NCBI GenBank assembly: GCA_022652735.1
Contig: JALCRP010000015.1
Location: 1-42,446 of the forward strand
Origin: Faecalibacterium sp.
GTDB lineage: Bacteria; Bacillota; Clostridia; Oscillospirales; Ruminococcaceae
Reading direction: 5' to 3'
Length of the DNA: 42,446 bases
Shown one piece after another: positions 24,336 to 42,135 of the stretch. The position numbers and the translations under genes were made by a program. The notes under the pieces are model-generated. The model had not been told where the DNA came from and did not search any database. It worked only from the letters and a program-made list of their open reading frames with translations. Each line of letters begins with the position of its first letter. The first letter of the stretch is position 1.

Positions 24336-24791
24336 TTAGCTTTCCCCATTTGGTTTATTTTCTTTCTTCCCGGCTGTGGCATTTGGCACAAGTTGTGCCG
24401 TGATCGCGCCGATGGTAATACCCGACAAAGTGCGGATACAATCCTCGTTCATGCGGGCATAGATGTCATCCATCACAGCGGCCATGCCCGAACATATTTG
24501 ACATGCGCGGTCGACATCGCCGCTGCGCCAGTGGCTCGAAACCGGCTCTTCCCCTAGCGCCTCTATCACTTGCCGCAGCGTAATTGCCGCCGCGCCGGGC
24601 AGCGTACAATAGCCGCTGTTTTTGCCCTCGCGGGCTTCTACAAGGCCGGCATGGTGCAGCCGGGCCATTACCTTGCGCACCCGGGCGGGGTTTGTGCAGA
24701 TGTTATCCGCCAATACCCCGCTCGGCGTCAGCGTCCCTACATGCTCAAGATAGACAAGCGCATGCACCGCCACCGCAAATTCTGCTGTCAT
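24336..24791 (-). CDS. Rrf2-family transcriptional regulator
   Basis: Winged-helix regulator of 151 residues. The Rrf2 pattern is clear: VAVHALVYLEHVG, ADNICTNPARVRKVMARLHHAGLVEAREGKNSGY (helix-turn-helix and wing), then the effector segment. That segment has only two close cysteines, CQIC (C97, C100), rather than the three that bind iron-sulfur clusters in IscR or NsrR, although C32 and C62 are also present. A thiol switch is therefore more likely than a cluster (inference). It is the first gene of an operon with trxA and trxB and probably controls it, with a promoter at 24914-24941 that overlaps imperfect inverted repeats. Confidence 0.88.
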   Translation of the reverse strand: MTAEFAVAVHALVYLEHVGTLTPSGVLADNICTNPARVRKVMARLHHAGLVEAREGKNSGYCTLPGAAAITLRQVIEALGEEPVSSHWRSGDVDRACQICSGMAAVMDDIYARMNEDCIRTLSGITIGAITAQLVPNATAGKKENKPNGES

Positions 24792-24941: not shown

Positions 24942-24998
24942 GCGTAACTTTTTCGGTGAAAAAAAATACGCCACAAACTCAAATTTGCCGTTCGCTTT

Positions 24999-25030
24999 TT
25001 AACCGAACTTTTACCCCTGTCTGGTATAGT
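24999..25030 (+). promoter_or_regulatory. Promoter with shared 18-base element, site A
   Basis: TTAACCGAACTTTTACCC (24999-25016), 8 bases, TATAGT (25025-25030) followed by AT. The same 18 bases with the same 8-base gap and TATAGTAT occur on the minus strand at 37653-37684, upstream of the giant surface-protein operon. The -35 position lies inside the element and does not resemble TTGACA, which suggests an activator or an alternative sigma factor. It drives the MucBP-like surface protein. Confidence 0.75.
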
Positions 25031-25091: not shown

Positions 25092-26015
25092 ATGAAAAAG
25101 CAGATCAAAAAAATTGCAGCAGTTCTGGCAGGCATGTCGATTGCCTGCACATGCTTGCCGATGGCAGCTTTTGCGGCGGATGCTCCTCAGTACAATATCG
25201 TATTCAGCGCCGGCGAGTGCGGCACGATCCCCAATAATATGGTGCCCAGCAAGGCAGGCAGCGTTGTTTCCCCCGTGGTTACGGTAAAAGACAGCGACCT
25301 TTACAGCGCCTATGAATTTTACTGCGCCGATACGAACGAATCGGTTCAGATCGACCAGAACAGCATGACGGCCACTGTTCCGGTTACCGGCGATGCCATT
25401 TATGTAGCACAGTATATCGCCGCCAACAGCGCTTTGAGCTGCACGATCCAGTATGTGGACGAATCCGGCATTGAGATTGCGCCTTCCAAATCTTATCGTG
25501 TACAGAGCGGCGATTCCGTTGCAGAAGCTGCTGCGGCGGTAGCGGGCTACACTTACGCTTCTGCAGATTATACCGTAAACGGCGGCGCCGCACAGGCATA
25601 CGCCGGCAGCGTAAAGGTTACGAGCGCTACCGCCATCGTGTTCCACTACACTGCAAACGCTAATGTAATCACCAATACCACGACTACGACCAACACTGTA
25701 TATACCGATAATGTCACAACGGTTGGTGCTGCGGCTGTGGCCGGCGGTGCCGGTGCAGCGGCCGGGGTTGGCGGCACGACGATCACGGACAATGAAACGC
25801 CGCTTGCTGGCGGCAACGGTAATGCGGCCGGCGCCGGCGAAAGCGCTGCTTCTTCGCAGCCCAGCGAGACGATTGAGGACAGCGAAGTTCCGCAGGCCGC
25901 CTCTGTGCACAGCGTAAGCGTGGCGATGGTCGCCGGCATCCTCGCGGCGGTTGCCGTCGCAATGGTTGCGGTAGTTGTGTTCATTCGCAAGAAAAAGAGC
26001 GCACATCAGGGCTAA
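25092..26015 (+). CDS. Secreted MucBP-like surface protein with C-terminal membrane anchor
   Basis: A 307-residue exported protein. It has a signal peptide (residues 1 to about 29, cleavage near AFAA), an N-terminal beta-rich part, a MucBP-like module (about residues 115-175, CTIQYVDESGIEIAPSKSYRVQSGDSV split over two strands) and a Thr/Asn- then Ala/Gly-rich linker. The linker contains ITDNETPLAGG, a motif often seen before the anchor of clostridial surface proteins. A hydrophobic helix at about 273-297 and a KKK tail end the protein. No LPXTG motif is seen, so it is probably held in the membrane rather than sortase-linked. GAGGAGAA precedes the ATG. Its promoter shares an 18-base element with the giant surface-protein operon, implying joint regulation. 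Ligand unknown. Confidence 0.8.
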   Translation: MKKQIKKIAAVLAGMSIACTCLPMAAFAADAPQYNIVFSAGECGTIPNNMVPSKAGSVVSPVVTVKDSDLYSAYEFYCADTNESVQIDQNSMTATVPVTGDAIYVAQYIAANSALSCTIQYVDESGIEIAPSKSYRVQSGDSVAEAAAAVAGYTYASADYTVNGGAAQAYAGSVKVTSATAIVFHYTANANVITNTTTTTNTVYTDNVTTVGAAAVAGGAGAAAGVGGTTITDNETPLAGGNGNAAGAGESAASSQPSETIEDSEVPQAASVHSVSVAMVAGILAAVAVAMVAVVVFIRKKKSAHQG

Positions 26016-26478: not shown

Positions 26479-27270
26479 TTACTGCTTGTTCTGCTGTTTA
26501 TTCTTTTTGCCGCGATGAATCAGCAGCACCAGTAAAATGATACCTACCGCAAATACGATGCCGAGCAGCAAGAGCGGCGCGGTATCGCCCGTCTGCACAC
26601 GCTGCACGATTTGCCGTACAAGCGTATTGGTCTGTGTGTTCGTTTTCGTAACCGTGACCGTATGGGTCTGCGTATCCTGCGCCAAGAAGCGGTAGTCGAT
26701 TGAGGCAAGCTTATTCTGGTAATCGTTTGCCGAAGCCGAACCGTTGATCGTCATCGTCAACTTCACCATTGCCGTCTGGCCATTTTTAAGCTGTGCCACG
26801 TTCATCCATTTGCCCGCCGTATCGTCGCCGGCAACTGTGGTGCCCGTCAGAGAATTTTGGAATTCCTGTAAGCCGCTGGCGTTTTGGCCACCCGCCGTGT
26901 CGCTGTAAAGCGTCGAGGTCGTATCGCCCTGCGTCACTGTTAAATCAATGGTGTAAGCGGTAGGGTGTGCGATTCCGCTCGAAGCAGAGCGAGTCATCGT
27001 GCCGCTTTCAAACGGCAGCGTGGAAAGATCCATGTAAAAGTCTGCCGTTGTGCCGGAATCATTGCTCAGCGTAATTGTCTGTACGCAGGTGCTGCCCGGC
27101 AATACGCCGGAAAACGTTTGGTCATTGCCGGTTGTCGTCAGAGCCTTTTGGCCGGTATAGGTCACCGTCGAATCCTGCTGCTGGTCGACTTGCCCTTCGG
27201 CAAACGCCCCCATACAAAAGGTGCAGGCTACTGCGGCGGCGAAGAGCAGGCTCAAAATTCTTTTTTTCAT
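26479..27270 (-). CDS. Secreted surface protein with C-terminal membrane anchor, last gene of the operon
   Basis: A 263-residue exported protein. It has a signal peptide (MKKRILSLLFAAAVACTFCMGAFA), an extracellular beta-rich domain of about 180 residues with the look of an immunoglobulin-like fold (VLPGSTCVQTITLSNDSGTTADFYMDLS), a Thr-rich stalk (TVTVTKTNTQTNT), a membrane helix at about 231-252 and a KKNKQQNKQ tail. RVQTGDTAP just before the helix resembles a decayed sortase signal without the LPxTG core. GAGGAGAAGG precedes the ATG. It is made with the TasA-like proteins and may act as their membrane base (inference from context and topology). I do not recognise a named family. Confidence 0.75.
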   Translation of the reverse strand: MKKRILSLLFAAAVACTFCMGAFAEGQVDQQQDSTVTYTGQKALTTTGNDQTFSGVLPGSTCVQTITLSNDSGTTADFYMDLSTLPFESGTMTRSASSGIAHPTAYTIDLTVTQGDTTSTLYSDTAGGQNASGLQEFQNSLTGTTVAGDDTAGKWMNVAQLKNGQTAMVKLTMTINGSASANDYQNKLASIDYRFLAQDTQTHTVTVTKTNTQTNTLVRQIVQRVQTGDTAPLLLLGIVFAVGIILLVLLIHRGKKNKQQNKQ

Positions 27271-27289: not shown

Positions 27290-27967
27290 TTACAGCGTTA
27301 CAGCGGTAATCGTACCGTCAACGATGGTTGCCTGTGTGCCCCATGCGGCGAGAATCGCGTTGGTGTTGACCGTATCGTTGCCGGCCAAATACTGTACGGC
27401 CTGCGCAGAAACGCGAATCTCCGGCTGATAGCCCTGATTTGCCAGCCCCGCGCGCTCGCTCAAGCGAACGCTGTCCAAAAAGCTTCCCGTTGCGGCGTTG
27501 CTTTCCAGATGCCCCGTATGCACAAGCACAATTTGCTCTGCGCTTTTACGCAGGACAATCCATTCTGTGCCGCCGTAAGCATCCCCAGCCGCCAGCGTAT
27601 CCAGCCCATCCAAAATAATATCAGAGGGATTCGTTGCGCCGGAAGTATCCTTTTCGCCGTCTTTCGTCCAATACTTTGTAATGGTAACGCACACATATTC
27701 CGAGGTACTGTCCGTATTTTCTGCGGTATAGCCAATCTTCTGCGCGGCGCCGCCCGGAACAAGCTGATTCAGCGCGGTCGTCTGATCCGCGTCTGCCTGC
27801 GCATCGACAGCTGTATTTTCGGCCGAAAGCTTAACCGCCAGCGTTGGCGTATCATAGTTGCCCGTGATCGTGCCGCTCGTTGTTGTAGCATACGCCAGCG
27901 TAACGCCCACCGTGGCAACGGCCAAGATGCATGCGATCATGCTCAGTAACAGCAGTTTCTTTTTCAC
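27290..27967 (-). CDS. SipW-type exported protein, TasA/camelysin-like
   Basis: A 225-residue protein starting at GTG 27967, eight bases after AAGGAG. The N-terminus has the long hydrophobic, SipW-type signal ending GVTLAYATTTSGTITGNY, close to the GxTxAYFTD-like cleavage region of TasA proteins, though the usual F-T-D is changed to A-T-T. The rest is beta-rich: VPGGAAQKIGYTAENTDSTSEYVCVTITKYW is typical of TasA/CalY domains, in which a proline-glycine turn precedes a strand. No C-terminal anchor is present. It lies 43 bases after the sipW gene, its probable processing enzyme, and 19 bases before the last gene. Fibre subunit or minor pilin role is inferred. Confidence 0.75.
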   Translation of the reverse strand: MKKKLLLLSMIACILAVATVGVTLAYATTTSGTITGNYDTPTLAVKLSAENTAVDAQADADQTTALNQLVPGGAAQKIGYTAENTDSTSEYVCVTITKYWTKDGEKDTSGATNPSDIILDGLDTLAAGDAYGGTEWIVLRKSAEQIVLVHTGHLESNAATGSFLDSVRLSERAGLANQGYQPEIRVSAQAVQYLAGNDTVNTNAILAAWGTQATIVDGTITAVTL

Positions 27968-28010: not shown

Positions 28011-28526
28011 TTATTTCGTCGTGTTCTTCCCTTTGCGTTGATCGTCAGCGGCAAAAACTTCGGGAAGAAATACGGCCAGAAGCAAAAGAATCAGAATTGC
28101 GGTAATGGTTAGGATACCTGTTTTGGTTTCGACCCATTCGCATACCGCGCCTACTGCGGGGACATGAAATGCCACCTTGCCGATCACGGCATTCGCCATT
28201 GTGGTCGTCAAATCCGGGGTATTGTTGGCGTCGCCCTGTGTTGCGATGTTGCCCGCCTCGTCAATGGAGACGATGCGGTGCGTCACTACCGAGCCATCGG
28301 CTTTGCGGAAGGTGATTACATCGCCCACCGCAAGCGCCGTGCCGCCCGTAGGCTTTAGCACCACCAGCGAGCCCGTGGGGATCGCCGGCTCCATGCTGCC
28401 GGTGCGTACCGCATACAGCCGCATGCCCACCGCGCGCGGCACCAGCAGCAGCGCCGCAAATACCAGCATGACAACAATCAGGCACCAGACAATTCCGTTC
28501 CAGATTTTATGCAGTGTTCTCCGCAT
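28011..28526 (-). CDS. sipW: Signal peptidase I, SipW (ER-like) type
   Basis: Membrane-bound signal peptidase of the archaeal/ER-like type, 171 residues. Membrane helices flank the catalytic part (about residues 11-30 and 135-155). The nucleophile is Ser44 in RTGSMEPAIP. The general base is a histidine, H83 in VVTHRIVSI, instead of the lysine found in ordinary bacterial enzymes; this is the hallmark of SipW. Acidic residues GDANNTPD follow (D99, D105). SipW proteins process TasA-like fibre proteins encoded beside them, and here two such genes flank it. AAGGAG lies 11 bases before the ATG. Confidence 0.92.
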   Translation of the reverse strand: MRRTLHKIWNGIVWCLIVVMLVFAALLLVPRAVGMRLYAVRTGSMEPAIPTGSLVVLKPTGGTALAVGDVITFRKADGSVVTHRIVSIDEAGNIATQGDANNTPDLTTTMANAVIGKVAFHVPAVGAVCEWVETKTGILTITAILILLLLAVFLPEVFAADDQRKGKNTTK

Positions 28527-28595: not shown

Positions 28596-29189
28596 TTACG
28601 GGTTTGTGGCCATGCCAGAGGAAGCTGTAAACAATTTCCCGCTGTCATACAAGGCCCAAATCGTTTGTGCATCTGTTGTGGAGGTTTGGTTTCCGCTGTT
28701 GTCCGTATAGTACACTTCCGTCGGGACAGCTTCGGATTCCACATAAATGCGAAGCCCGAGGCTGACCAGCTCTTCTTCGGTATAGTTTGTTTGTGCTGCG
28801 GCATTGCTGTTTTTGTTTGCCGTAACGGTAGTAAACAGGGGGCTTGTATTCGCATTGGGCGCTACGGCGCTTTCATAGTAATACCAGCCATCTGTGCCGT
28901 TGGTTTTCCAATCGCCGTAAAAGCCGCTGATCGTGACAAGGTTCGCCGGCGAAACCGTATAGCGCATCCGCACATAACAGGCGATTTCACTGTCGTTTTT
29001 TACAGAAGGCTTTTTCGTGGTCAGCCCGCTGTTACCTTCCTGAATTTCCGTCTTGATCGAAGCGACCGAATAGTTGTTTTTCTCGCTGGCGGTATCCGTG
29101 AAGTAGGCGAAGGTGCTGCCGACCATACCGGCGGAAAGCGCCGCTGTCAGGAGCGCGGCCATTGCGATCAGTTTCAAATTTCTTTTCAT
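28596..29189 (-). CDS. TasA/camelysin-like SipW-dependent fibre protein
   Basis: A 197-residue exported protein with the classic SipW-dependent signal: a hydrophobic run followed by STFAYFTDTASEKN, then a beta-rich domain (IACYVRMRYTVSPANLVTISGFYGDWKTN). TasA and CalY proteins form extracellular fibres or act as surface proteins in biofilms. The ATG at 29189 has AGGAGG nine bases upstream; an ATG at 29210 would add seven residues and overlap the preceding gene. No membrane anchor or sorting signal follows. It lies 17 bases after the giant gene and 69 before sipW, in the order substrate, peptidase, substrate. Confidence 0.85.
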   Translation of the reverse strand: MKRNLKLIAMAALLTAALSAGMVGSTFAYFTDTASEKNNYSVASIKTEIQEGNSGLTTKKPSVKNDSEIACYVRMRYTVSPANLVTISGFYGDWKTNGTDGWYYYESAVAPNANTSPLFTTVTANKNSNAAAQTNYTEEELVSLGLRIYVESEAVPTEVYYTDNSGNQTSTTDAQTIWALYDSGKLFTASSGMATNP

Positions 29190-29206: not shown

Positions 29207-32200
29207 TCAAGCGTTCTTCGGCGTATTGCCGTTGCCGTTACCATCGTTACCGCCATCGCCGTTTCCGTCGTCCTTGGGCTTACCAAGGTCATTTGTGGCG
29301 GGTATTACCGCTACTGCGTCCGCCGGGCGGGTAGTATCTGTCTTCTGCTCTGCAGGGGCACTGTGCACCGGATAGTTGCCATTAAAGCCGCTCTCCGTGG
29401 TGTACTGGAAATTGCCCTCGTTGTTTGCCGCCGTATTGGTGACAGCCGCAGCATACGAGAGGTAGCTGTCGCCTTTCAGCTTATTGACAAAGCTGACGCT
29501 GGCCGCCGCGCGCGCCGGCCCATCGGCGGCGTTCTCCGTAGGCGCGCTCAAAGCGACCGTTTTGGTGCTGCCATCCGCCGCCGCATAGCGGCCGGTGGAA
29601 AGCTCGGTAATCTCATATTCGCCCAGCGGCAAGCCTGCGAGAACCACGCTGTTCTTCTGGTTTTCTGCGGCCGTATCGCCGTTAAACTGGATCGCCGCGG
29701 CATACGTGACATTCGTCTTGGTGTTGCGCACGGTAAAGGTGAAGGTTGCCGCGCCAAAACTTGGCTCATATTTGTCGATCGTCTTTTCGATGGTCAAATC
29801 GCCAACCTGCACGGTATTTGTCACTGCAACAGCCTGCTTCGTCAGGGTCGGCTGCGTTGTATCGGCTTCCAGCGTCTTGGTTTCGCCGATCGTAGCAGCA
29901 TAGTTTTCCACAGGCGCTTCCGCAACCGTATAAACGATTTCCTTGCCCGCGGCGTCGTACTTCGGCAGGTTGATAAAGCGCGCCTGCCAATCGTTTTCTG
30001 CGGTAACTTCCTGCGTGGCAACCGGCGTCGTTGCGCCGTTCGCCATCAGCTGATAGGTGATGCTATTCGGCCGCAGGCCGTCAGAATTGCTGAAATCCTG
30101 CCAAACCTTGGTGACATCGAGGTTAACCGTCGCATAGGTGTTGGTGAAGTTCATCGCATCCGCCGCAACGGCTTCCGCTGCATTCGCAGCCTTGGCCGCA
30201 TAAGCTACTTCCACTGTAAACGGCTTGCCGTCGCAGTTGTCTTTCACGGTAACGGTTACCGTATACACGGTGTTGTCCTTCGTGATCGACTGATTGCTCA
30301 AATCGTTTTCTTTGACCGTGTAGCTAAAGGTGCCGGTGCCCGTAACCTTGTCGCTTGCGTCCGCCGCATAGGTCAGGTTGTCCTGCGTATAGTAGAAGCT
30401 CGGGAAGGCCGTAATGCCGGCTTCGGTTTTCGCGCCTTCTTTGGGGGCATCATTGCCGACCGTCAGCGCGTCCGTGCTGATTGCGTTGCCAGCTTTGTCG
30501 TTCATCGGGGCGGGGTTCGTGTTATCCGCCGCGGCGATGCTAAAGGTAAAGTCATTGGCCTTCAGCTGGTAGTTTTCGTCCGCGGTATCCACGTTTTTCG
30601 TGCCGTGGATCAGGTTTTCGCCTTCGGCCTCTGTGCTGCCGTCGGCGGTATAGGTGTTTACGAAATCCGCCGTGGTTGCGTCGGTAAGCTGCTTGCCGGT
30701 GGCGTCATAGTACGCCACGTTGGCCGTTAGGCTGCCCTTCTGATCGTCCGTTACGGTAACCTTTACGGTGTAGCTGGCCGTATCATACGTAATGCCGTTT
30801 GCAGCATCGCTCGGCTTCTGCTCGGCGACAGTATACGTAAACTTTTTGCTGGCGGCATAGGCGTCGCCGTCTTTCAGATCGGCCAGCGTGTACGTGATGT
30901 CGCCAAAGCCGAACGCGGTGCTCTTAGTATCTTTGGCTGCGGCCGGGTTTTGGATGGTCTTGCTGCTATCAGCGGCATCCGCCGGCATCGGGGCGTTATC
31001 ACCCGTCAAGGTAAAGCGGAACTCGCCCGCGAAGAGGGCACGGCCATTCAGCGTCTTGGTGGCTTGGATCGGGTCTTGCACCGTCAGAGCGGCCGCCGTA
31101 TAGGTGTTGGTAAAGTTCAAAGCCGTCGTGTCCGGCGCGTTATCCTTCGTGATAGCAGCGCTATCCGCACCTGTAATGCTCGTAACTTTCGCTGCAAGCT
31201 TGCCGGTGCCCGGGTCGCTCACATGGACGATGACCGTATACACGGTGTTGTCGTAGGTAATGCCGTTTGCAGGGGTATTTGCCAGCTCGGAAACGGTATA
31301 GGTGAAGTCTTTTCCGGCGGCCTTATCCGTCACATCGCTAAGCTCCGTAGCCGTATAACTTAGGCCAAAGCTAAAGTTTTGGCTATTTCGATTTACGATC
31401 TTCGTATCTGTTACGGAGCCGTCCTGCTTCAACTGGATCGTGAATTGATCGTTTTCGTTCCAAGCACGGCCCGTCAGCGTTTTGCTGCCGGAAAGGGTGA
31501 TTTGATCGCTGTCGGCCGCCGTGTAGGTGTTTGCGAAGTTGGCGGCTTGTGCGTTTTTGGCTGTCGTATCCGTAATGAGTGAGCCGGAAAAATCTTTGGT
31601 TTTTGCGTAGGTGACCGTAGTAGCCAGCGTACCATTATGTGCTGCATCCGAAACGTTAACCGTAACGGTATATTCGCTATTGTCATAGGTAACGCCGGCT
31701 GTGCTTGCATCAGCCGGCTGCTGCTCTGTGACGGTATAAGTGAAATCTTTGTTTATTGCGCCGCCGAGGTCGGCCAGCTTATAATTCAGCGGGAAAGTGA
31801 AAGAAGATGCGTCCTTATTTACCGTCGCGGTCTGGGTATTGGCAATCGTATTGCCGTCCTTGTCCACCTGTGCAAGCTGGATGGTGTAGCTTTCCGTGGC
31901 ATTCCATGCGCGGCCCGTCAACGTCTTGTTGCCGGAAACTGTCGCTGCGCCGGTAGCGGCATAGGTGTTTGTAAAGGGCAGCTGCACATTTTTCGTAGCG
32001 CTGGTTTGCGCATCTTTCTGGGCATTATCCGTCCACGAGATGGAGCCTAGCGCCAGCTTGCCGGTTTGGGTATCATCCACAATAACGATCTGCACCGTAT
32101 AGACATTGCTGTCATAAGTGATGCCGGCCTTTGCCTCCTGCGTTTCCTGCACCTTATAGGTGTAGGTGCCCGCGGCAGTAAAGGTGATGCTGCCGAAGCT

Positions 32201-35200
32201 GAACGCGGTGCTCTTGGTATCTTTGGCTGCGGCCGGGTTTTGGATGGTCTTGCTGCTATCAACGGCACCTTCCGGCATCGGGGCAGCGTCGTTGCCCGTC
32301 AAGGTAAAGCTGAACTCGCCCGCGAAGAGGGCACGGCCATTCAGCGTCTTCACCGCATGGATCGGGTCTTTCAGCGTCAGGGCCGCTGCCTGATAGTGGT
32401 TTGCAAAAGCAATAGCCGTTACGGTTGTATCCGCAATGTTGGTGCCCTCGGCATTCTTGGTCTGCCGGATGGTGCGGGTTACCGTCAGTTTTCCGTTGCC
32501 GTTATCCTGTACGGTATCGGTAACCGTGTACGCGGATGGATCGTAGGTGATGCCGGGGAGCTTGTTGTTGGTTTCCTGTACGGTGTAGGTATAGGTGCCG
32601 GCCTTATCATAGGTCTTCGCCGCAAAAGAAATGCTGCTGTCGGTTGCTGTGCCATTATTAAGGGCAGCCGCCGCGTTCTTTGCCGTGTCCGTGGCGCCGT
32701 TGCCTATCATCGTAAAGGTGAACTCGCCAGCAGCCATTGCGCGGCCCGTCAGGGTTTTTGTCAGGGTCAACTGCTGGGCCGTTGCCGCGGCCGCCGTGTA
32801 GGTGTTGTTGAACACGTTCAAGGCGTTGCTGCCATTTTCATTCTTGCCGTAGGTAACGTCTGTTTTCAGGGTTCCATTGCCATTATCCGTCACCGTGACG
32901 CTCACGGTAGCCGTGTGTGTATCATAGGTTACGCCGTTTGTTGCATCGGCAGGCACATTTTCCTGGATGGTGTAGTTGTAGGTTTTGCCGATGTCTGCCT
33001 GCGTATAGGAAATTTCGCCAAAGTCAAACGCACGATTGTTGGTCGTTTTCGTAAGGCCGGAAACCGTCGCGGTTGTATTGGCGGGCATCGGGGCATTACC
33101 CAAAGCGGCCAGTGTAAAGGTAAAGTCTTTCGCCGTGGTGGTATCCGTACCGTTCACGGTAAAGTTCTTTGTGCCGCCGATGGTGGCCGTGCCGGAAGCC
33201 GTATAGGCATTCGTGAATTTCAGCGTCGTATTGGTCGTATTGGCATTGCCATCGTCCGCTTTGGTTTGTGCAATGGTGGGCGCACCAACTGTCAGCTTAC
33301 CATTTGTAATATCATCTACAACCACATAGGTGACGGTATAGGCGGCCTTACTGTAGGCCATACCGTTTTCGGTACCAGCGGTTTCAGTAACCGTATAGGT
33401 ATAGGTGCCTGCCTTGGCAAACGTAAGCGTACCAAAACTGAAATTACCATTTGCTTTGTTCTTTGCCGTTGTGGCTGCCACCGTTGCGCCGCCCTGCGGG
33501 TTGTTGCTGTCCGCTGTCAGGGCAAAGGTGAACTCGTTTGCTTTCAGGGCGCGGCCGGTAAGGGCCTTGGTGCCGGCCAGCTCGGCGGAGGTGGCCAACG
33601 ACGGAGTATAGGTATTGGTAAACGTCAGGCCATCCAGCGTGTAAGCCTTTTGCAGATTCAGCACAGAGGTGAGTTTGCCAAGCCATGTATCGCTATTGGT
33701 CTCTTTTACTTTCGCCTCGGCACTCAGCTCGCCCGTTGTCGAATTCTGTTTTACGTCGAATGTCACCGTATAAGAGTTTTGGGCATAAGTAATGCCCTGC
33801 ACATTTCCGGCAATCTCTTTTACGGTATAGATATAGGTACCGGCCGCAGTAAAGGTCAGCAGGCCAGTATTGGCATCCGGCGCAAAGGTAATATTGCCGT
33901 TTGCATCCGCATACGCGGTGCTCACTTGCTTATTGTCCTTATCAAACAGGCCAAACTGAAACGCATTTTCCCCAAACTGGCCCACGGTATAGTTTCCGGC
34001 CGTGCTTGCGATTGTCTTGGTCGCTTGAATTGTAAGGGAAATTGCGTCTGGGGTGTAGGTGTTGACAAAGGTAGCGGTTTTGTCGCCGGTGCCCTCGCCC
34101 TTATTTAAGGTAAAGGCCTTGCCATTGGCTGTGCCGTCGCCAGTCATCGTGGCAGCCAGTACACCATTGCCGTCATCTGTAACCTTAACCTTGACCGTAT
34201 AGCTCGCATTAGAATACGAGTAATGGCTGGCGGCGGTATCCGGAACTTCCGATACGATATAGGTAAACTCTTTGCTTGCCGCGCCGTCGAGGTCTGCCAG
34301 CGTATAGCTCGGCAAGGGCAGGCTAAAGGTGCCAGTAGTATTATCGACCTTGGCCGTCGCGGTATAATTGTCGCCTCCCACAGAGGCAGGCTTGGGGCCA
34401 GTGACCTGAACAGTAAAATCAGGCGCGCTGCTCAAAGACTGGTTCAGCAGGATCTTGTTGCCGGTAACAGTCAAGTCTGTTGTTTGGTTGTCAGTGATTT
34501 TATAGGTATTGGTAAAAGCCACCGTGGCATCTGTTGTGCCCATCGTCTGCTGCTCGGTCGAAAGGCCAGTTGTCGAGGTCTGGCTACCATTCAGCGTATA
34601 TGTTGTGTCATAATAGCCAAGGCCGTTTTCTGCCACGGTATAGTTGCTGCCCACCATCAGGCCGTCGATCTTCAGGCTTTCGCCGGATTTCAGGGAAATG
34701 GTATTTTCGCCGCCTTTTAGCGTTGTGTTCGTACCATTAGAATAAGCGGCAGCATACGTTGTGCTCGCATCGCCGGGCAGGGTAACAGTAAAGGAAAACG
34801 CGCGGCTAGTTGCCGTCGTGTTGGCCGAGCCTGTTGCCGTTTTTGAGATCGTCAGCGAATGCGTAGCCAATGTGTTGGTTACCGTGTAGCCATCCACTGC
34901 GGCGGTATAGTTTTCCGGCGCAGTAGGTTCGCTAAGGGTATACTGCGCCCTTGTGCCGTCCGTGTTATACATCGGGACATTTTCAATCGTGCCCTGCCAA
35001 GTATTTGCATTGCTGTTGCCGTTCAGCTGGGCAGAATATGTTTTGCTGGAATCTGCCTTGTTCGTCAGCATCAGGGTCACGGAAGCAGGGCGGGCAGAGT
35101 AATTATTATCCACCCATTTTTTCGTGACAGTGATATTCTGCGTTTTCGCGGTATTCAGCGTATTCGTCAGGTTCAGAGTTACCGCGTTGCTGCCCGTCGC

Positions 35201-37528
35201 GGCGGTCTGCTGCGGCGCCGTCAGCTTCCAGCCGGAGGCAGATTCTAACGCACCCGGTTTCAACGTTTCCGTTGTGCCATCCTTATAAGTAATAACTTCT
35301 TTGGTAACGTCAGCCTTCGCGCCGTCATAAATTCTTGCAGAAGTGTTGGCCGTCCAGTTGTTCGCCGCATTCAGCGCAACAGTATAAGTTTGCGGTTCTT
35401 TTCCTTCCTTTGTCACAGTTACGGTAACATCTACGCTTTGGATATTGCTTGTTGCAGCGCCAGAAAGTGCATTTTGGCTTTGATCGGCAAAACTTTTGCT
35501 GACGGTCAAAGTGCCATCCAGCCCAACTTCCTGCCATTGCGCGTAAAGTGTCGTATTCTGCGTAATGGTAAAGGTTTGGCCATTCGTGTAGGCCTCCCCC
35601 TTGCCATCTACCTGCGTGTTCCAGCCCGTAAAGGTGTAACCATCCGGGCAAAGCGGCGTCCTTGCCGTAGCAGACTGTTCGTTCTCACTATGGCCTACAT
35701 AAACCGTCTCACCCGAATAAAGCTGCGTACCGTTCGGCATTGTGCCGGATTGAACGGTTTTTCCGTTATTGTTATATGTAATGGAAATCTGCGATTTATC
35801 TCTCAATACACCATCCACGTGCCACGTTGACTCATTCTTGATAACATACCAAAGCACGTACTGGGTGTCAGAATTATAGCTAGAGTACACTCCCTTGATC
35901 TGTGCGTCTGTCGGAAGCGTCGTCAGCCGGCTGTTTACACCGCTCTGAGTAGGGTCGTTGTTTTCTGTTGAGTTGAAATAGAACTCAGCCGTTCGAATCG
36001 TATTCGAAATATTGATTGCACCCGTATATTGGTTTGTATCATGACCCTGCGGCTCATAGGGAATAACGCCATCATAACGAATAAAGAATTGAGCATTTAC
36101 GTTTTTTTCAGCCCATGTGGCATACAAAGTAACATTGTCCGTTACCACATATTTATCATCCGAAGCGTAAACTTTGGTGTTGTTCTCTTTGTACTTTCCT
36201 GGTGCTGTCGCATTGTTAATTTTCGACCAGCCCACAAACACTTTATTGTCGTTTTTGCCCGTATAATCCGGGAGCGTGATCGTTTCGTTTTTCTGCGGAA
36301 CTGTCATTGCCGCTGGGGCGGGGGTGCTGCTGCCGCCGTTTTTATTAAAAGTTACCGTATAGCCGGTAGCTTTGTAAACGAAATAGATTTGGCTATTGCC
36401 AAGAGGTTTCCGACTATCCCAACTTCCATCGGTAGAATAATAGTACCAATCGTAATTCAACGTAGCATAGAAGACATACCCGACCGAGGTTGCCTTTTCG
36501 AGCGCATTGGCATTCACTTTGCCCTTGTTACCGATCACAACCGCTTTCTGATAATCATAGCCGGCAATCTTAGGTGCCTTGTCCTCCAAGACAACTTTGT
36601 TCGTACTCCAATCGGTGGACAATGTATAGCCGTTTGCATCGCCAACCGGATTTCCGTTTTCATCCACGCACTGAATCTTCAACGTGTGGCTATAGCTATT
36701 TGCATTATACTTATAGGTAATCGTGAACGTCGAGAAACTGTCCACGGTAAAATCGGTTGCCACGGTATCGCCCGTCACCGCGACGGTACCTTCCGTGTTG
36801 TCGGTGGTATCCGCAACCACCTCCGGCGTTACAACATCCTGCGCCGCATCCTCCGCCAGATGCGTCACAGCAATCGAATCCTCTGCCAGCGCCGCGCCCT
36901 CCGGCGCATTGGCCTCCAGCACGGCACGATTCAGCTCCATCGAAACCTGCAGGCTGGCGGCGTCCTTCGGCTCCACCGGCTCGCCGGTGGCGACGCTCTC
37001 GAAGTGGATGTCATACGCCAGCATGTCGTCATACTGCGTATCCGCCTCGGCCAAAGCGTCTTCTGCCTCGCTATACTGGTCTGCCGTCTGGGTATCTTCC
37101 GGGGTCAGCGCATTTACAACAAGGCGCACTTCCTCGGCAAAAGCATCCGCAGGCGCAGAAACCTTTACCGTAACCTGATCAGGCTGCTGCTCCGGCGCAT
37201 ATTCCACCATCGGCTCCGTCGTAGGCTCCGCTGTCGGCTCGGCCGTAGGCTCCGCTGTCGGCTCGGCCGTAGGCTCCGCTGTCGGTTCAGCCGTAGGCTC
37301 CGTCGTCGGTTCAGCCGTAGGTTCTGCCGTCGGCTCCGGCTCTGTAACGTCAGTTTGCCCCGCCTGCTCCTCCGGCTGTGCGCCGGCATCCGCAACTGCG
37401 GGCTCCTTGGCGGCTGCATCCGCAATCGAATCAGCAAATGCCGAAACCGGCATCACACTGACAAAAATGCAGAGCACCAGAATCAAACTGAACACTCTCT
37501 GCCAAAGTTTGATCTTTTGGGTTTCCAT
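29207..37528 (-). CDS. Giant multidomain surface protein with about ten pilin-type isopeptide repeats
   Basis: A 2773-residue exported protein. Signal peptide: residues 1 to about 32 (VSAFADS). A Pro-Thr-Glu stalk of four-residue units spans residues 66-106. Two InlB-type (Listeria-Bacteroides) repeats end near residues 470 and 664 (VTLYATWAEK, TTLYAQWQE). Cna-B-like domains follow (about 670-1010), then about ten domains of some 140 residues resembling the Spy0128/FctA pilin fold (about 1012-2466), then two more Cna-B-like domains. Most repeats keep the triad for an internal Lys-Asn isopeptide bond: Lys in TKTLTGRA, Glu in YTVxE, Asn in FxNTYTA. The C-terminus is Gly/Asn/Asp-rich (DDGNGDGGNDGNGNGN) and stops without membrane helix or LPXTG motif, which is unusual. 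AGGAGG precedes the ATG. An adhesin or fibre role is inferred. Confidence 0.9.
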   Translation of the reverse strand: METQKIKLWQRVFSLILVLCIFVSVMPVSAFADSIADAAAKEPAVADAGAQPEEQAGQTDVTEPEPTAEPTAEPTTEPTAEPTAEPTAEPTAEPTAEPTAEPTTEPMVEYAPEQQPDQVTVKVSAPADAFAEEVRLVVNALTPEDTQTADQYSEAEDALAEADTQYDDMLAYDIHFESVATGEPVEPKDAASLQVSMELNRAVLEANAPEGAALAEDSIAVTHLAEDAAQDVVTPEVVADTTDNTEGTVAVTGDTVATDFTVDSFSTFTITYKYNANSYSHTLKIQCVDENGNPVGDANGYTLSTDWSTNKVVLEDKAPKIAGYDYQKAVVIGNKGKVNANALEKATSVGYVFYATLNYDWYYYSTDGSWDSRKPLGNSQIYFVYKATGYTVTFNKNGGSSTPAPAAMTVPQKNETITLPDYTGKNDNKVFVGWSKINNATAPGKYKENNTKVYASDDKYVVTDNVTLYATWAEKNVNAQFFIRYDGVIPYEPQGHDTNQYTGAINISNTIRTAEFYFNSTENNDPTQSGVNSRLTTLPTDAQIKGVYSSYNSDTQYVLWYVIKNESTWHVDGVLRDKSQISITYNNNGKTVQSGTMPNGTQLYSGETVYVGHSENEQSATARTPLCPDGYTFTGWNTQVDGKGEAYTNGQTFTITQNTTLYAQWQEVGLDGTLTVSKSFADQSQNALSGAATSNIQSVDVTVTVTKEGKEPQTYTVALNAANNWTANTSARIYDGAKADVTKEVITYKDGTTETLKPGALESASGWKLTAPQQTAATGSNAVTLNLTNTLNTAKTQNITVTKKWVDNNYSARPASVTLMLTNKADSSKTYSAQLNGNSNANTWQGTIENVPMYNTDGTRAQYTLSEPTAPENYTAAVDGYTVTNTLATHSLTISKTATGSANTTATSRAFSFTVTLPGDASTTYAAAYSNGTNTTLKGGENTISLKSGESLKIDGLMVGSNYTVAENGLGYYDTTYTLNGSQTSTTGLSTEQQTMGTTDATVAFTNTYKITDNQTTDLTVTGNKILLNQSLSSAPDFTVQVTGPKPASVGGDNYTATAKVDNTTGTFSLPLPSYTLADLDGAASKEFTYIVSEVPDTAASHYSYSNASYTVKVKVTDDGNGVLAATMTGDGTANGKAFTLNKGEGTGDKTATFVNTYTPDAISLTIQATKTIASTAGNYTVGQFGENAFQFGLFDKDNKQVSTAYADANGNITFAPDANTGLLTFTAAGTYIYTVKEIAGNVQGITYAQNSYTVTFDVKQNSTTGELSAEAKVKETNSDTWLGKLTSVLNLQKAYTLDGLTFTNTYTPSLATSAELAGTKALTGRALKANEFTFALTADSNNPQGGATVAATTAKNKANGNFSFGTLTFAKAGTYTYTVTETAGTENGMAYSKAAYTVTYVVVDDITNGKLTVGAPTIAQTKADDGNANTTNTTLKFTNAYTASGTATIGGTKNFTVNGTDTTTAKDFTFTLAALGNAPMPANTTATVSGLTKTTNNRAFDFGEISYTQADIGKTYNYTIQENVPADATNGVTYDTHTATVSVTVTDNGNGTLKTDVTYGKNENGSNALNVFNNTYTAAAATAQQLTLTKTLTGRAMAAGEFTFTMIGNGATDTAKNAAAALNNGTATDSSISFAAKTYDKAGTYTYTVQETNNKLPGITYDPSAYTVTDTVQDNGNGKLTVTRTIRQTKNAEGTNIADTTVTAIAFANHYQAAALTLKDPIHAVKTLNGRALFAGEFSFTLTGNDAAPMPEGAVDSSKTIQNPAAAKDTKSTAFSFGSITFTAAGTYTYKVQETQEAKAGITYDSNVYTVQIVIVDDTQTGKLALGSISWTDNAQKDAQTSATKNVQLPFTNTYAATGAATVSGNKTLTGRAWNATESYTIQLAQVDKDGNTIANTQTATVNKDASSFTFPLNYKLADLGGAINKDFTYTVTEQQPADASTAGVTYDNSEYTVTVNVSDAAHNGTLATTVTYAKTKDFSGSLITDTTAKNAQAANFANTYTAADSDQITLSGSKTLTGRAWNENDQFTIQLKQDGSVTDTKIVNRNSQNFSFGLSYTATELSDVTDKAAGKDFTYTVSELANTPANGITYDNTVYTVIVHVSDPGTGKLAAKVTSITGADSAAITKDNAPDTTALNFTNTYTAAALTVQDPIQATKTLNGRALFAGEFRFTLTGDNAPMPADAADSSKTIQNPAAAKDTKSTAFGFGDITYTLADLKDGDAYAASKKFTYTVAEQKPSDAANGITYDTASYTVKVTVTDDQKGSLTANVAYYDATGKQLTDATTADFVNTYTADGSTEAEGENLIHGTKNVDTADENYQLKANDFTFSIAAADNTNPAPMNDKAGNAISTDALTVGNDAPKEGAKTEAGITAFPSFYYTQDNLTYAADASDKVTGTGTFSYTVKENDLSNQSITKDNTVYTVTVTVKDNCDGKPFTVEVAYAAKAANAAEAVAADAMNFTNTYATVNLDVTKVWQDFSNSDGLRPNSITYQLMANGATTPVATQEVTAENDWQARFINLPKYDAAGKEIVYTVAEAPVENYAATIGETKTLEADTTQPTLTKQAVAVTNTVQVGDLTIEKTIDKYEPSFGAATFTFTVRNTKTNVTYAAAIQFNGDTAAENQKNSVVLAGLPLGEYEITELSTGRYAAADGSTKTVALSAPTENAADGPARAAASVSFVNKLKGDSYLSYAAAVTNTAANNEGNFQYTTESGFNGNYPVHSAPAEQKTDTTRPADAVAVIPATNDLGKPKDDGNGDGGNDGNGNGNTPKNA
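30130..34490 (-). repeat. Tandem isopeptide-domain repeats in the giant gene
   Basis: About ten modules of 400-530 bases. Each starts with a strand around TKTLTGRA, has YTYTVxE in the middle and ends at FxNTYTA. Most are diverged; modules 6 and 9 contain a nearly identical stretch (30911-31057 and 32201-32350), so copying between modules continues. Confidence 0.8.
37211..37333 (-). repeat. Tandem repeat encoding PTAE/PTTE units
   Basis: About ten 12-base units, best seen as 24-base pairs, encode alternating PTAE and PTTE from residue 66 to 106 of the giant protein. Such arrays vary in copy number by slippage and usually form a wall-spanning or spacer stalk; here it is near the N-terminus. 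Confidence 0.88.
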
Positions 37529-37652: not shown

Positions 37653-37684
37653 ACTATAACAAAGATGGGTAAAAGTTCGGTTAA
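37653..37684 (-). promoter_or_regulatory. Promoter with shared 18-base element, site B
   Basis: On the minus strand TTAACCGAACTTTTACCC (37667-37684), 8 bases, TATAGT (37653-37658) followed by AT. Sequence and spacing match site A at 24999-25030. The giant gene starts about 120 bases downstream. The next 180 bases to the right are AT-rich for this genome and contain an imperfect inverted repeat (about 37688-37729) directly next to the element. Confidence 0.75.
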
Positions 37685-37699
37685 GATACGGCGCAAAAA

Positions 37700-37971: not shown

Positions 37972-40005
37972 TTACTGGGCAGAGCCTGCCTGTTTCCATA
38001 CGATGGAAAAATAGTTTTTGACCGCGAGCAGATAGAACACACCATAAACCGCCACAAACGCCGCCGCTACCGCAAGGGCGTTTGCCAAAGTCGGCGTTTC
38101 CTGCCCGATCACATCCATCATGCGATTGTATGTGGTTAACGCAAAAACAGTATGCGCTAACCCAACGGCAAGCGGTGTGCCAAATACAATGCCCAGCTGC
38201 TTTGCCACAGAAGCCAGCATCTCCCGCTTTTTCATGCCGATTTTGCGCAGGATGGCATAGCGCGGGCCTTCCTCCTGCGCTTCCATAATCATTTTGTAGT
38301 ACATGACGCTGCACAACGCCAGCAAGAACAAAATCCCGACAAACAGCCCGATAAACACATACGAGCCATACAACGCAAAGTTTGCCTTGTAAACGCCGAT
38401 ATAGCTTACATTTGCCGGCAGGCCGCCGTCGCCAAAGCGCGCAGGGATAAAGGCATCCAGCGCCGCTGTAGTATTGGCAGAGGCCATTTCATCATCAAAC
38501 ATGAAACCATAGAAGGTGTCGATTTCGGTGCTGTCCGCCGCGGCATGATACTGCTGATAGACGGCATCGCTTACTACAACCGTGGGATGCTGGTATAAAT
38601 CGAGCAAGCCGATATATTTATGCAGCCCGACACCCTTTACGGTATAAACACAGCTTTGCCCCTGAAAGGCGACCGAAAGCCCCTGCCCCACAAGGCCGGC
38701 GCTGTATTGCTCGGTCATGTTGCCATCCAGAAAATAACAGGCATCGTCTGAAAGGCCACCCGCAAAATCCGTGCGCAGGCTGGACGCTTTGCCCTGCCCC
38801 GCCTGTGTATCTGCGATGATCTTCTGATAGGCGCTTTGGGAAAGCAGATAGGCATCTACCGGCGCGCCAAGGGTATCGGCAGCTTCCGTGCCAGTTTGCA
38901 CCGCATAGCTGTCATTTTGCATTTGGGCGTGCACCAGTTCGATTTGGTCTTCTGCCGTAATCTGCACCTCGCCAATGTCGGAAACCGTCTGTGCAATTTT
39001 TGCATCCTGCTCCGGCGTGATGTTTTTCACAAGATAGGAAAACGGTGCATAGAAATCCGTGCCCTGTTCCAGCCCGAGATATAAGGAAACGGAGGCGCTT
39101 ACCATCGTAATCGCAATGGCGCACAGCAGCGCGGAAAGCGTCAGCATTTTGGCGTTGGCTTTCAGGCGAAACGCGATCTGTGAGGCACTGATAAAGGTAG
39201 ACGTCTGATAATACGCCGCTTTTTTGCGTTTGAGCAGGGTCACTGCCATCGGCAGGGTGTTGCGAAAAAGCAAATACGTTCCGATGGAAACCACGGCCAC
39301 GACCGCAAAGGCCGGCAGCAACAGCTGCATGCCGGAGATATTTAAGTTCATCTTCAAAGCAATGCCATAGCCCACCGCGAGAAACGCGAGCGCCGCCCAT
39401 GCCCCCGCCGGGGAATAGTGCGGGATGCCCTCGCTCTGCTTTGTGGCCGAGAGCAGGTCGATCAGGCTATAGCGGTAGATGATCTGATACGCGCGGATGC
39501 CGCTGATGATAAACAATCCGGCAAAGGCCGCCACCGTAACAAGGATCGCCATCGGGCTGGCCGCATAAGAAACCGAAGTGCCCACGGCCATCACTTTCAG
39601 CAAAACGGAAGTGAAATATCCCGCGCTGACGCTGCCGACGCCAACCCCGAAGCCTACCGCCAGCATCCCGATGAAAAACGTTTCACAAAACAGCAACAAG
39701 GCAATCGTTTTTTTCGCCATGCCCAGCAAAGAATAAATTGCGATTTCTTTTTTTCGCCCACGGATAAAATAGCTGCCGGAATAAAGCACGAAGATAGCCG
39801 CAAACAAAAGCACCGCCACAGCAGAGCCTTGGAAAAGCGTATTCATTTTTCCGCTGCCAAAACGATATACGGAAAAGGCCGGGTTATAGTACATGGCGCA
39901 GAACAGATGAAACACCACAACACAAAACGCCGTGCTGAAAAAATAGGCCAGATAACTGCCGGCCCGTTTGCGCACATTCTTGAGGGCAATCTCAGCGAAG
40001 CTCAC
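37972..40005 (-). CDS. ABC transporter permease, BceB-like (FtsX fold, antimicrobial-peptide type)
   Basis: Large permease of about 677 residues with the BceB/VraG layout: ten membrane helices in the pattern 1 + 3, 2, 1, 3 with an extracellular domain of roughly 200 residues (about 330-540) between helices 7 and 8. SFAEIALKNVRKRAGSYLAYFFS and IYSLLGMAKKTIALLLFCETFFIG are typical; ILRKIGMKKREML precedes the last helices. The favoured start is GTG at 40005 after GGGGGTG, giving a 14-base overlap with the ATPase gene; an ATG at 40029 would add eight residues. Such transporters sense or remove cell-wall-active peptides such as bacitracin, and they often signal to a linked kinase, here encoded upstream. 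Confidence 0.88.
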   Translation of the reverse strand: MSFAEIALKNVRKRAGSYLAYFFSTAFCVVVFHLFCAMYYNPAFSVYRFGSGKMNTLFQGSAVAVLLFAAIFVLYSGSYFIRGRKKEIAIYSLLGMAKKTIALLLFCETFFIGMLAVGFGVGVGSVSAGYFTSVLLKVMAVGTSVSYAASPMAILVTVAAFAGLFIISGIRAYQIIYRYSLIDLLSATKQSEGIPHYSPAGAWAALAFLAVGYGIALKMNLNISGMQLLLPAFAVVAVVSIGTYLLFRNTLPMAVTLLKRKKAAYYQTSTFISASQIAFRLKANAKMLTLSALLCAIAITMVSASVSLYLGLEQGTDFYAPFSYLVKNITPEQDAKIAQTVSDIGEVQITAEDQIELVHAQMQNDSYAVQTGTEAADTLGAPVDAYLLSQSAYQKIIADTQAGQGKASSLRTDFAGGLSDDACYFLDGNMTEQYSAGLVGQGLSVAFQGQSCVYTVKGVGLHKYIGLLDLYQHPTVVVSDAVYQQYHAAADSTEIDTFYGFMFDDEMASANTTAALDAFIPARFGDGGLPANVSYIGVYKANFALYGSYVFIGLFVGILFLLALCSVMYYKMIMEAQEEGPRYAILRKIGMKKREMLASVAKQLGIVFGTPLAVGLAHTVFALTTYNRMMDVIGQETPTLANALAVAAAFVAVYGVFYLLAVKNYFSIVWKQAGSAQ

Positions 40006-40756
40006 TGCTATCACCCCCAAGCTCGGCAAACGCGGCTATGATGCAGTCGTAAAACTCCTTGCGCGTTCCTTCCTTATGCAGCTCACGCCAGAGCTTTCCA
40101 TCCTTAATAAGCAGAATCCGCTGGCAAAAACTTGCGGCAAATGCATCGTGCGTGACAAGCAGAATCGTCGCGTTTTGCGTTTCGTTAAGGTTTTGCAGGC
40201 ACTCCATCAAGTCCTTGGCAGATTTGGAATCGAGCGCGCCGGTGGGCTCGTCTGCCAAAAGCAGCGCAGGCCGGTTCACGATTGCGCGCGCGGCGCTGGC
40301 GCGCTGGCGCTGGCCGCCGGAAACCTCGCAGGGGTACTTTCCCAGCAAGGCTTCGATGCCGAGCCGGCGCGCCACTTCGGCCACGGTACGTTCGATTTGT
40401 TTGGCGTCCTTTTTGGCAAGGATCAGCGGCAGCGCGATGTTTTCACGCAGGGTAAGGGTATCCAGCAAATTGTAATCCTGAAATACAAAGCCGAGCTTAT
40501 TGCGGCGGAAATCAGAAAGAGCCGGCTCGCGGATGCCACAAATATTCTGCCCGCCAATTTCGATCTTGCCCGAGGTTACGGTATCAATCGTGGCGATGAC
40601 ATTCAAAAGCGTGGATTTGCCTGCACCGGAAGGCCCCATAATGCCGACAAATTCGCCTTTTTCTACCGAAAAGCTTACCCCGTCCAGCGCCGCCGAAGGG
40701 GCTGCTGAGGTTGCCTGATATATTTTTTTCACATTGCTTACGCTGAGAACAGACAT
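39992..40756 (-). CDS. ABC transporter ATP-binding protein, BceA-like
   Basis: ATPase of the MacB/BceA type, 254 residues from the ATG at 40756, which follows AGGAGG; an in-frame ATG at 40783 lies before that site. Walker A is GPSGAGKST, the Q-loop FVFQDYNLLDTLT, the signature VSGGQRQRASAARA, Walker B LLLADEPTGALD and the switch VTHDAF. The C-terminal 30 residues (KLWRELHKEGTRKEFYDCI) are typical of the peptide-resistance subgroup. It overlaps the permease gene, so the two are translationally coupled. Confidence 0.93.
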   Translation of the reverse strand: MSVLSVSNVKKIYQATSAAPSAALDGVSFSVEKGEFVGIMGPSGAGKSTLLNVIATIDTVTSGKIEIGGQNICGIREPALSDFRRNKLGFVFQDYNLLDTLTLRENIALPLILAKKDAKQIERTVAEVARRLGIEALLGKYPCEVSGGQRQRASAARAIVNRPALLLADEPTGALDSKSAKDLMECLQNLNETQNATILLVTHDAFAASFCQRILLIKDGKLWRELHKEGTRKEFYDCIIAAFAELGGDSSELR

Positions 40757-40790
40757 ATTTTTCCTCCTAAATATCCGCTGCAAGAAAAAT

Positions 40791-40826
40791 GGCAGCGGTT
40801 GATGCTCCCCATCCTAAACCGCTGCC
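40791..40826 (-). terminator. Terminator/attenuator between kinase and ABC genes
   Basis: GGCAGCGGTT (40791-40800) and AACCGCTGCC (40817-40826) form a perfect 10-base-pair stem. On the minus strand it is followed by ATTTTTCTTG. It sits 35 bases before the ABC ATPase start, so it either ends the two-component transcript or attenuates the ABC genes. TATAAG at about 40828-40833 (minus strand) is a possible -10 box for a separate promoter. Confidence 0.75.
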
Positions 40827-40860
40827 CTTATATCTGTTTTCAGAAAACCTTATTTTAACC

Positions 40861-42135
40861 TTAATTTTGTGCCGGAAGCCGAATCGTGATTTCTGTACCG
40901 ACGCCCGGCGCGCTTTGCGCCGTGATTGTGCCGCCGTGCGCCTCGATGATTTGGCGGGCGATCGCCATGCCAAGGCCGGAGCCTTCGGCTTTCACCTCAG
41001 TGCTGGTGCCGCGGTAATAGCGGGCAAACAGGCCGTCCAGCTCGGTTTGCGTCATGCCGCAGCCATTGTCTTTTACCGTAATGGCAAAGCCGTTTTCGCC
41101 GCGCAGAGAAATTGCGGTGGAAACTTCGGGGCTGTTATGTTTGAGGGAATTGATAATGATATTATCAAGCGCCCGGCGCAAAAGCTGCGCATCGAAGCAA
41201 TATTCCGCATTCTCCCGTTCCGGCAAAAACGTCACATTGCGTTCTTCATATTCTGGCGTGTTTAAGATGTCGATTACCACTTCGCGCACAAAGCGCGTGA
41301 GGTTTTGCTGCCTTGCCTGAAGCGGAAGCATCCCGCTTTGCAGTTGATAGGTCAGCTTCAAGTCGTCGACCAGCTGCTGGGTATAAAGGGCATTTTTCAG
41401 CATGATCTGCCCATATTTTTGCACCTGCGCCGGGTCGGGCTGGGCTGTGGCATCGGCCAAAAGCTCGGCATAGCCGCGAAGCGGGGCGAGCGGCGTTTTC
41501 AAATCGTGCGTGGTATTGGCCAGCCATTCTGTTTTGGCCTGCTCATCCTTTTTGCGCTGCCTTTCCGCCGCGGCAGAAACATACCCGCTGTAAACGGTAA
41601 GCGCAAGCACCAAAACCGCCGTCAGCAGCGCAGTCACGACGATCCACACACGCCCGGCCGAATAGCGCGCGTTATCCACATACATCGTCACTTTAGAGAT
41701 GGAAAGCGGGAACCCGACAAGATAGACATAGGTTTCGCCGCCCTGCGCAAGCTCCCCCAAAAAGACAGAATAGCCGTCCGTGCCATACTGATACAGGTGC
41801 GTCAGCGCATACGGCTGATAGCGTTCCGGCAAAGTATCCGGCTTATCAAGCGCAAGCACTTGCTGGCCCTCCGGGCTAAGGATCTGCAGCCAGAGGCCGT
41901 TTTGCCGCAAAAGATTCTGCCCATCGGCCGAGACGGCCGGCGCCTCGCCCGAAAAGGAAATGTACTGTGCAAAGTCCATCGTGAAATCATGCGGCCATCG
42001 GCTGCTGATGATTTTGCCATCCGCCGTGCGGGCGGTAAACGAATAGAACACCATAAACGCCGCCGTCAGCAGGATGCCGAGCAAAAGTACGGCCGGGATC
42101 AGGATAAAGCGGCGAAATTCCTTTGTCGGTTTCAT
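40861..42135 (-). CDS. Membrane sensor histidine kinase
   Basis: A 424-residue kinase. It has two membrane helices (about residues 11-33 and 162-185) that enclose an extracellular sensor domain of about 130 residues, then the dimerisation/phosphoacceptor helix with H210 in TTHDLKTPLAPLRGYAE. The ATP-binding domain has the N box DNIIINSLKHN, G1 VKDNGCGM, F box LFARYYRG and G2 GSGLGMAIA. Its ATG overlaps the response-regulator stop (ATGA). Unlike BceS kinases, which lack an extracellular domain and depend on the transporter for sensing, this one has a full sensor, so it may detect its signal directly. Confidence 0.93.
   Translation of the reverse strand: MKPTKEFRRFILIPAVLLLGILLTAAFMVFYSFTARTADGKIISSRWPHDFTMDFAQYISFSGEAPAVSADGQNLLRQNGLWLQILSPEGQQVLALDKPDTLPERYQPYALTHLYQYGTDGYSVFLGELAQGGETYVYLVGFPLSISKVTMYVDNARYSAGRVWIVVTALLTAVLVLALTVYSGYVSAAAERQRKKDEQAKTEWLANTTHDLKTPLAPLRGYAELLADATAQPDPAQVQKYGQIMLKNALYTQQLVDDLKLTYQLQSGMLPLQARQQNLTRFVREVVIDILNTPEYEERNVTFLPERENAEYCFDAQLLRRALDNIIINSLKHNSPEVSTAISLRGENGFAITVKDNGCGMTQTELDGLFARYYRGTSTEVKAEGSGLGMAIARQIIEAHGGTITAQSAPGVGTEITIRLPAQN

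Follow-up and report, generated by a model that had tools for sequence, protein, structure and literature searches.

A direct-repeat element that precedes cell-surface genes in this Faecalibacterium genome is very likely the operator of a SARP-type activator and the signature of a surface regulon, although binding, activation and the signal are inferred, with no binding or expression data to support them. The sites themselves, their geometry, the genes that follow them, their co-occurrence with a SARP gene and the parallel changes in the operator and in the recognition residue are shown.

The putative operator and its copies in the window

The window, i.e., the whole stretch of 42,446 bp that was analysed, contains the 18-mer TTAACCGAACTTTTACCC exactly at 24999-25016 (+) and 37684-37667 (-), and no others are present even when 3 mismatches are allowed. 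In both cases TATAGT (25025-25030 and 37658-37653) comes after a gap of 8 bases, a combination that occurs exactly twice in the window, and the ATG starts downstream lie at 25092 and 37528, respectively. Two copies in 42 kb are not a product of chance, because none of 100 shuffles of the window held two at the same tolerance (mean of 0.02 matches). The flanks of the two copies are dissimilar and, since the same arrangement is found at related genes of other genera, neither chance nor duplication of the region explains the pair. The initial annotation, made from the sequence alone, had claimed a shared 18-mer at identical spacing to a -10 box, due neither to chance nor to recent duplication of the region, and both claims held.

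The repeat units are better framed one base leftward, as TTTAACC-GAAC-TTTTACC-N9-TATAGT at 24998-25030, where the element appears as a direct repeat of two similar 7-mers with a period of 11 bp; the distance from the 3' repeat to the TATAnT -10 box is 8 bp counted from the 18-mer and 9 bp counted from the 7-mer unit. The operator-promoter of the gene here named MUC (24998..25030, +) consists of TTTAACC (24998-25004), GAAC, TTTTACC (25009-25015), a 9-base spacer and TATAGT (25025-25030), and that of the giant-protein operon (37653..37685, -) of CTTAACC (37685-37679), GAAC, TTTTACC (37674-37668), the spacer and TATAGT (37658-37653). TTGACA is absent at the usual distance at both window sites.

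MUC (25092..26015, +) codes for a protein of 307 aa with, by eye, a signal-peptide-like start and a C-terminal hydrophobic helix followed by KKK; neither Pfam nor NCBIfam gives a match for it at E <= 0.001, so that the "MucBP-like" label of the initial annotation is unconfirmed, and the site is also found upstream of its relatives in two other genomes (G194 and G105). An Rrf2-type regulator gene (24336-24791, -) is divergent from MUC and shares its intergenic region. GIANT (29207..37528, -) codes for an isopeptide-domain surface protein of 2773 aa with ten FctA/Spy0128 stretches and two Cna_B domains; its C-terminal tail is rich in G, N and D and, by eye, has neither LPXTG nor a membrane helix. 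The operon continues with a protein with a SipW-type signal peptide domain over the cut-off and a weak BsaA-like match (28596..29189, -) and with a SipW-like signal peptidase I (28011..28526, -). Two further ORFs in the same order and strand are putative members of the operon, one with no family match (27290..27967, -) and one with a single Pfam match below the cut-off (26479..27270, -). The region at 37972-42446 (-) codes for a response regulator, of which only the C-terminal end is included, a histidine kinase, an ABC ATPase and an FtsX permease, which we take to be a BceRS/AB-like module order.

Search for further sites in the genome and the genus

The genome (G000; 2.2 Mb, 35 contigs, 93.7% complete) holds the 18-mer at 5 places with up to 3 mismatches vs 2 for the reversed control, and a degenerate fixed-spacing pattern at 8 places vs 1 at the same tolerance. 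At 0-1 mismatch, the degenerate pattern is found at four places in the whole genome, namely the window pair, C1:~8039- and C20:~7988-, the last two corresponding to matches L003 and L005 of the 18-mer search, and a more general pattern returns the same four. The four sites read TTTAACC-GAAC-TTTTACC-N9-TATAGT, CTTAACC-GAAC-TTTTACC-N9-TATAGT, TTTAACT-GAAC-TTTTACT-N9-TATACT and TTTAACC-GAGT-TTTAACC-N9-TAAACT, and the direct repeats are 11 bp apart in all of them. The search of the whole genome that the initial annotation had proposed yields two further good sites, both upstream of genes and with a spacing equal to that of the window sites. Two other candidates were set aside: C10:6767+ (L010), added by the more general pattern at 2 mismatches, is not claimed because that search is at chance level (5 places vs 3 for the reversed control), and L004 of the 18-mer search has no -10 box and is coding-like by eye.

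The C1 site sits between the SARP gene and an operon formed by an unnamed gene, here SMALL, and a sortase B gene, the sortase being over the Pfam cut-off and just under the NCBIfam cut-off for class B. The C20 site precedes a gene for a Ser-rich protein (L015:6708-7910, -) that has no family over the cut-off and, by eye, a hydrophobic helix at its N-terminus; the gene upstream of it looks like trigger factor.

Within the genus, the exact element with up to 1 mismatch is found only in this genome out of 31, and the degenerate pattern occurs at 5 places in the 30 other genomes vs 4 for the reversed control in 31. The element is confined to this species within its genus and leaves no footprint among the closest kin.

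Co-occurrence of the site and the SARP across the family

A SARP at >= 46% identity is encoded by 16 of 396 genomes of the family, this one among them. Exact matches to the pattern TTAACCG-N4-TTTAC-N10-TATNNT number 13 and are spread over 11 of the 396 genomes, 10 of the 16 SARP genomes vs 1 of the 380 others (Fisher p = 3.7e-15, uncorrected for relatedness). With 0-1 mismatch, the SARP genomes hold 14 places vs 0 for the reversed control, and all 14 precede one surface module, i.e., SMALL-led operons (10), MUC (3) and the giant gene itself (1), in agreement with the small surface regulon that had been proposed from the two window loci. The 380 other genomes hold 36 places at 0-1 mismatch, a number that does not exceed that of the reversed control (45 across 396 genomes, counted by hand), and matches outside the SARP group are therefore regarded as chance; these include the exact match in G342, before a GNAT-like gene, and a one-mismatch match in G086, inside a murI-like gene (both names by eye).

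The arrangement of the module varies. In G194 and G105, the site precedes both MUC and a SMALL-GIANT unit that directly follows the SARP gene; in the genome studied here, sortase B follows SMALL, and GIANT has a separate copy of the operator in the window. The exact site is absent from six of the 16 SARP genomes (G181, G233, G038, G156, G055 and G405), and in four of these six variants are found near the SARP, with a 12-bp period at loci L066, L069 and L070 and TTTAAGC half-sites in G055 (L082). At L069 and L070, a second operator-promoter of the same type (TTAACC, TTAACCC, CATACT), with a 12-bp period, is located about 85 bp farther upstream of SMALL, possibly forming tandem promoters.

SMALL (168 aa; L014:7484-7990, -) belongs to a conserved, unnamed family that heads SARP-linked operons and shares an RQNATWQG core in an alignment of 30 members, with no convincing Pfam, NCBIfam or PDB relative. 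It is found in 58 of the 396 genomes, and a SARP (E <= 1e-20) in 56 of these 58 carriers vs 44 of the 338 non-carriers, the overlap being counted by eye. The footprint upstream of SMALL was evaluated in 59 regions, a set in which the duplicate L118 was dropped, two coding-region paralog matches and a second L166 match were kept, many rows are near-copies, and some SMALL loci are not sampled. Without any consensus, 40 of the 59 regions hold a pair of 7-mers matching at >= 6/7 positions with a period of 11, vs about 6 in base shuffles (10 rounds) and 6-17 at 16 other periods. The consensus TKTRACC-N4-TKTRACC-N9-TATANT, which was derived from the very sequences scored, reaches >= 15/19 (rounded) in 44 of the 59 regions vs 2 of 59 on the opposite strand, and 15 of the 59 remain below this score. 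The period is 12 bp at L156, only one half-site is clear at L160, and at L166 the repeat is found solely before a second SMALL-like gene.

The candidate SARP regulator and its probable recognition residue

The SARP gene next to the C1 site (G000:C1:8143-9375-) lies outside the window and codes for a protein of 411 aa with an OmpR-type DNA-binding domain, a BTAD and a C-terminal GGDEF-like domain, in this order. The first two domains meet the definition of a SARP, while DNA binding and activation are inferred: BTAD is over its cut-off (1.9e-11) and Trans_reg_C (2.2e-4) below it, and at E <= 1 the two are found in 33/33 and 32/33 relatives, respectively. With a profile of the 33 relatives, the N-terminal domains match AfsR (6.9e-18) and EmbR (2.5e-14), and the C-terminal one matches diguanylate cyclases; the list of matches also includes many TPR proteins, among them the top row (2.9e-20), by repeat resemblance. 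This SARP is the sole BTAD match at E <= 0.001 in its genome. Five of the 30 other genomes of the genus have a BTAD gene at this threshold, none close to it; the best near-full-length match in the genus has 28% identity, and a search of the genome contigs for relatives of the SARP returned only two, at 30%.

The operator and the regulator vary together. In the structure of AfsR, T88 and R92 touch bases (PMC10936776), and by profile alignment, with positions counted by hand, these residues correspond to V73 and N77 of the SARP. In 32 loci that combine a SARP with a region upstream of SMALL, and whose site labels were assigned by hand, residue 77 is N in all 10 loci with TTTAACC-like half-sites, Q in all four with TTTAAGC/T half-sites and R in all 14 with TGTGACC- or TGTTACC-like half-sites; four further R77 loci lack a clear site, no repeat being found in four of the 32 (L158, L170, L171 and L172). 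An N-type and a Q-type SARP occur together in five genomes (G055, G166, G235, G332 and G405), two of which, G235 and G332, have the matching operator near each type. Since on the tree these labels require 2 changes, the minimum possible, the match counts as two events and not as 28; on the strength of these two changes, the half-sites change with the SARP residue at the position of R92 of AfsR.

The C-terminal domain points to a possible signal. Pfam GGDEF is found in 29 of the 33 SARPs at E <= 1 (0.029, below the cut-off, in the one studied here), and the profile of the domain matches a diguanylate cyclase in the PDB at 1.1e-8. The GG(D/E)EF signature is found in none of the 33 aligned SARPs, while an RxxD motif (R339, D342), just before the position of the signature, is kept in all 33, aligns with the RxxD of a diguanylate cyclase and is accompanied by an invariant R370. 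The degenerate GGDEF domain of Bacillus cereus PelD binds c-di-GMP via RxxD (R363, D366) and R395 (PMC7112168), and the distance from the Asp to the downstream Arg is 28 residues in the SARP vs 29 in PelD. Active GGDEF proteins commonly have RxxD as well. About 5 kb away lies a gene for a receiver/GGDEF/EAL protein (L014:924-3467-). Gating of the SARP by c-di-GMP is plausible, the binding of this molecule being inferred from the degenerate GGDEF domain and its RxxD.

In the mechanism that we propose, the activator of the operator would be an OmpR-like winged helix with a BTAD, most likely the SARP encoded at C1, two protomers of which would occupy both half-sites side by side, make up for the absent contact at -35 and bring the housekeeping RNA polymerase to the TATAnT box. 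The regulon would be a cell-surface programme made of sortase B and SMALL, the giant isopeptide protein with the SipW-like signal peptidase, and MUC, with the Ser-rich protein at C20 as a probable member, and its signal, as the C-terminal degenerate GGDEF with RxxD suggests, may be c-di-GMP.

Alternative explanations

A classical response regulator of the OmpR/PhoB family could bind the site instead, for instance that of the two-component/ABC cluster at 42446-37972 (-): the DNA-binding domain of a response regulator, truncated at the end of the window, is encoded upstream of the giant gene together with a histidine kinase, the fold of OmpR-type helices is common to the SARP N-terminus, and PhoB-type boxes likewise consist of direct repeats of 11 bp close to the -10 element. 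This reading is highly improbable. The kinase, which stands in for the incomplete regulator, finds no counterpart at E <= 1e-40 in 34 other genomes, among them the 9 relatives with the exact site, and the neighbouring two-component system, the only one of the genome's response-regulator systems compared, is therefore rejected as the conserved regulator. It is the SARP that is conserved next to the site, and the half-site changes track the residues of the SARP.

An alternative sigma factor, which the initial annotation had considered alongside a dedicated activator, or an ECF one would read GAAC as a -35 element and the remainder as a -10; the lack of TTGACA at the usual distance would be compatible with it, and GAACTTTT resembles an ECF -35 element. 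However, the -10 box is an ordinary TATAnT with an 11-bp direct repeat upstream, and GAAC falls in the N4 between the half-sites, where relatives differ (GTTC, GGCC, GGGT, GTTT) while the repeat units stay, so that this explanation, judged from the promoter sequences alone, is extremely improbable. The other half of that claim, a dedicated activator at a promoter whose -35 box is not TTGACA, holds as a fit to the 11-bp repeat and the co-occurrence of the SARP, with binding inferred. Finally, the SARP or another protein might act as a repressor on the same site, as operators overlapping the -35 element can be repressed, and a negative effect is reported for one SARP, Atr32 (PMC10972967). Against this, no usable -35 element is visible at the window sites in the absence of an activator, and SARPs are described as activators (PMC10936776); repression is most improbable, though it cannot be excluded without data.

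Relation to known systems and significance

The preferred reading, a SARP-type activator, combines known and new elements. Promoters bound by SARPs have direct repeats with a spacing of 11 or 22 bp, the 3' one of which lies 8 bp from the -10 element, and in the promoter of afsS the other repeat, farther upstream, overlaps the -35 element (PMC10936776); like AfsR-type operators, the sites described here have two repeats spaced by 11 bp, with 8 bp between the 3' repeat and the -10 element and the upstream repeat over the -35 region, and the regulator, like EmbR and the SARP/AfsR activators of Streptomyces that bind the afs box, has a winged helix followed by a BTAD. In contrast to the AfsR and EmbR systems, the half-site differs, the targets are sortase and isopeptide surface genes instead of antibiotic clusters, whose activation is the role described for SARPs (PMC10936776), and the C-terminus is a degenerate GGDEF domain instead of NOD/TPR (AfsR) or FHA (EmbR); the paper compared for the domain architectures of SARP, AfsR and EmbR does not mention GGDEF. 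PelD-type degenerate-GGDEF receptors of c-di-GMP likewise have a GGDEF fold without the catalytic signature and with the RxxD kept, whereas here the domain is fused to a DNA-binding activator and its binding of c-di-GMP is inferred. PhoB/OmpR-type boxes are tandem direct repeats of about 11 bp that replace the -35 element, as here, but the candidate SARP has no receiver domain and the neighbouring two-component system does not accompany the site in relatives. On this comparative evidence, the operator architecture is known, and the SARP branch, its targets and its sensor domain are likely new; a link of SARPs to sortase or surface genes, or to GGDEF, is undescribed in the part of the literature searched, which excludes most subscription papers and preprints.

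A bolder reading, against which we lean slightly, is that of a new type of c-di-GMP-gated activator, i.e., a SARP that senses c-di-GMP through an intact I-site. If true, afs-box-like operators would switch on a family-wide surface/matrix programme that comprises sortase B, giant isopeptide proteins, SipW-dependent secretion and the unnamed companion SMALL at the head of the operons. The comparative evidence connects a branch of the SARPs with genes of the cell surface, gives this branch a named operator and suggests c-di-GMP as a testable signal, and the operator pattern offers a simple predictor of surface regulons in little-studied bacteria.
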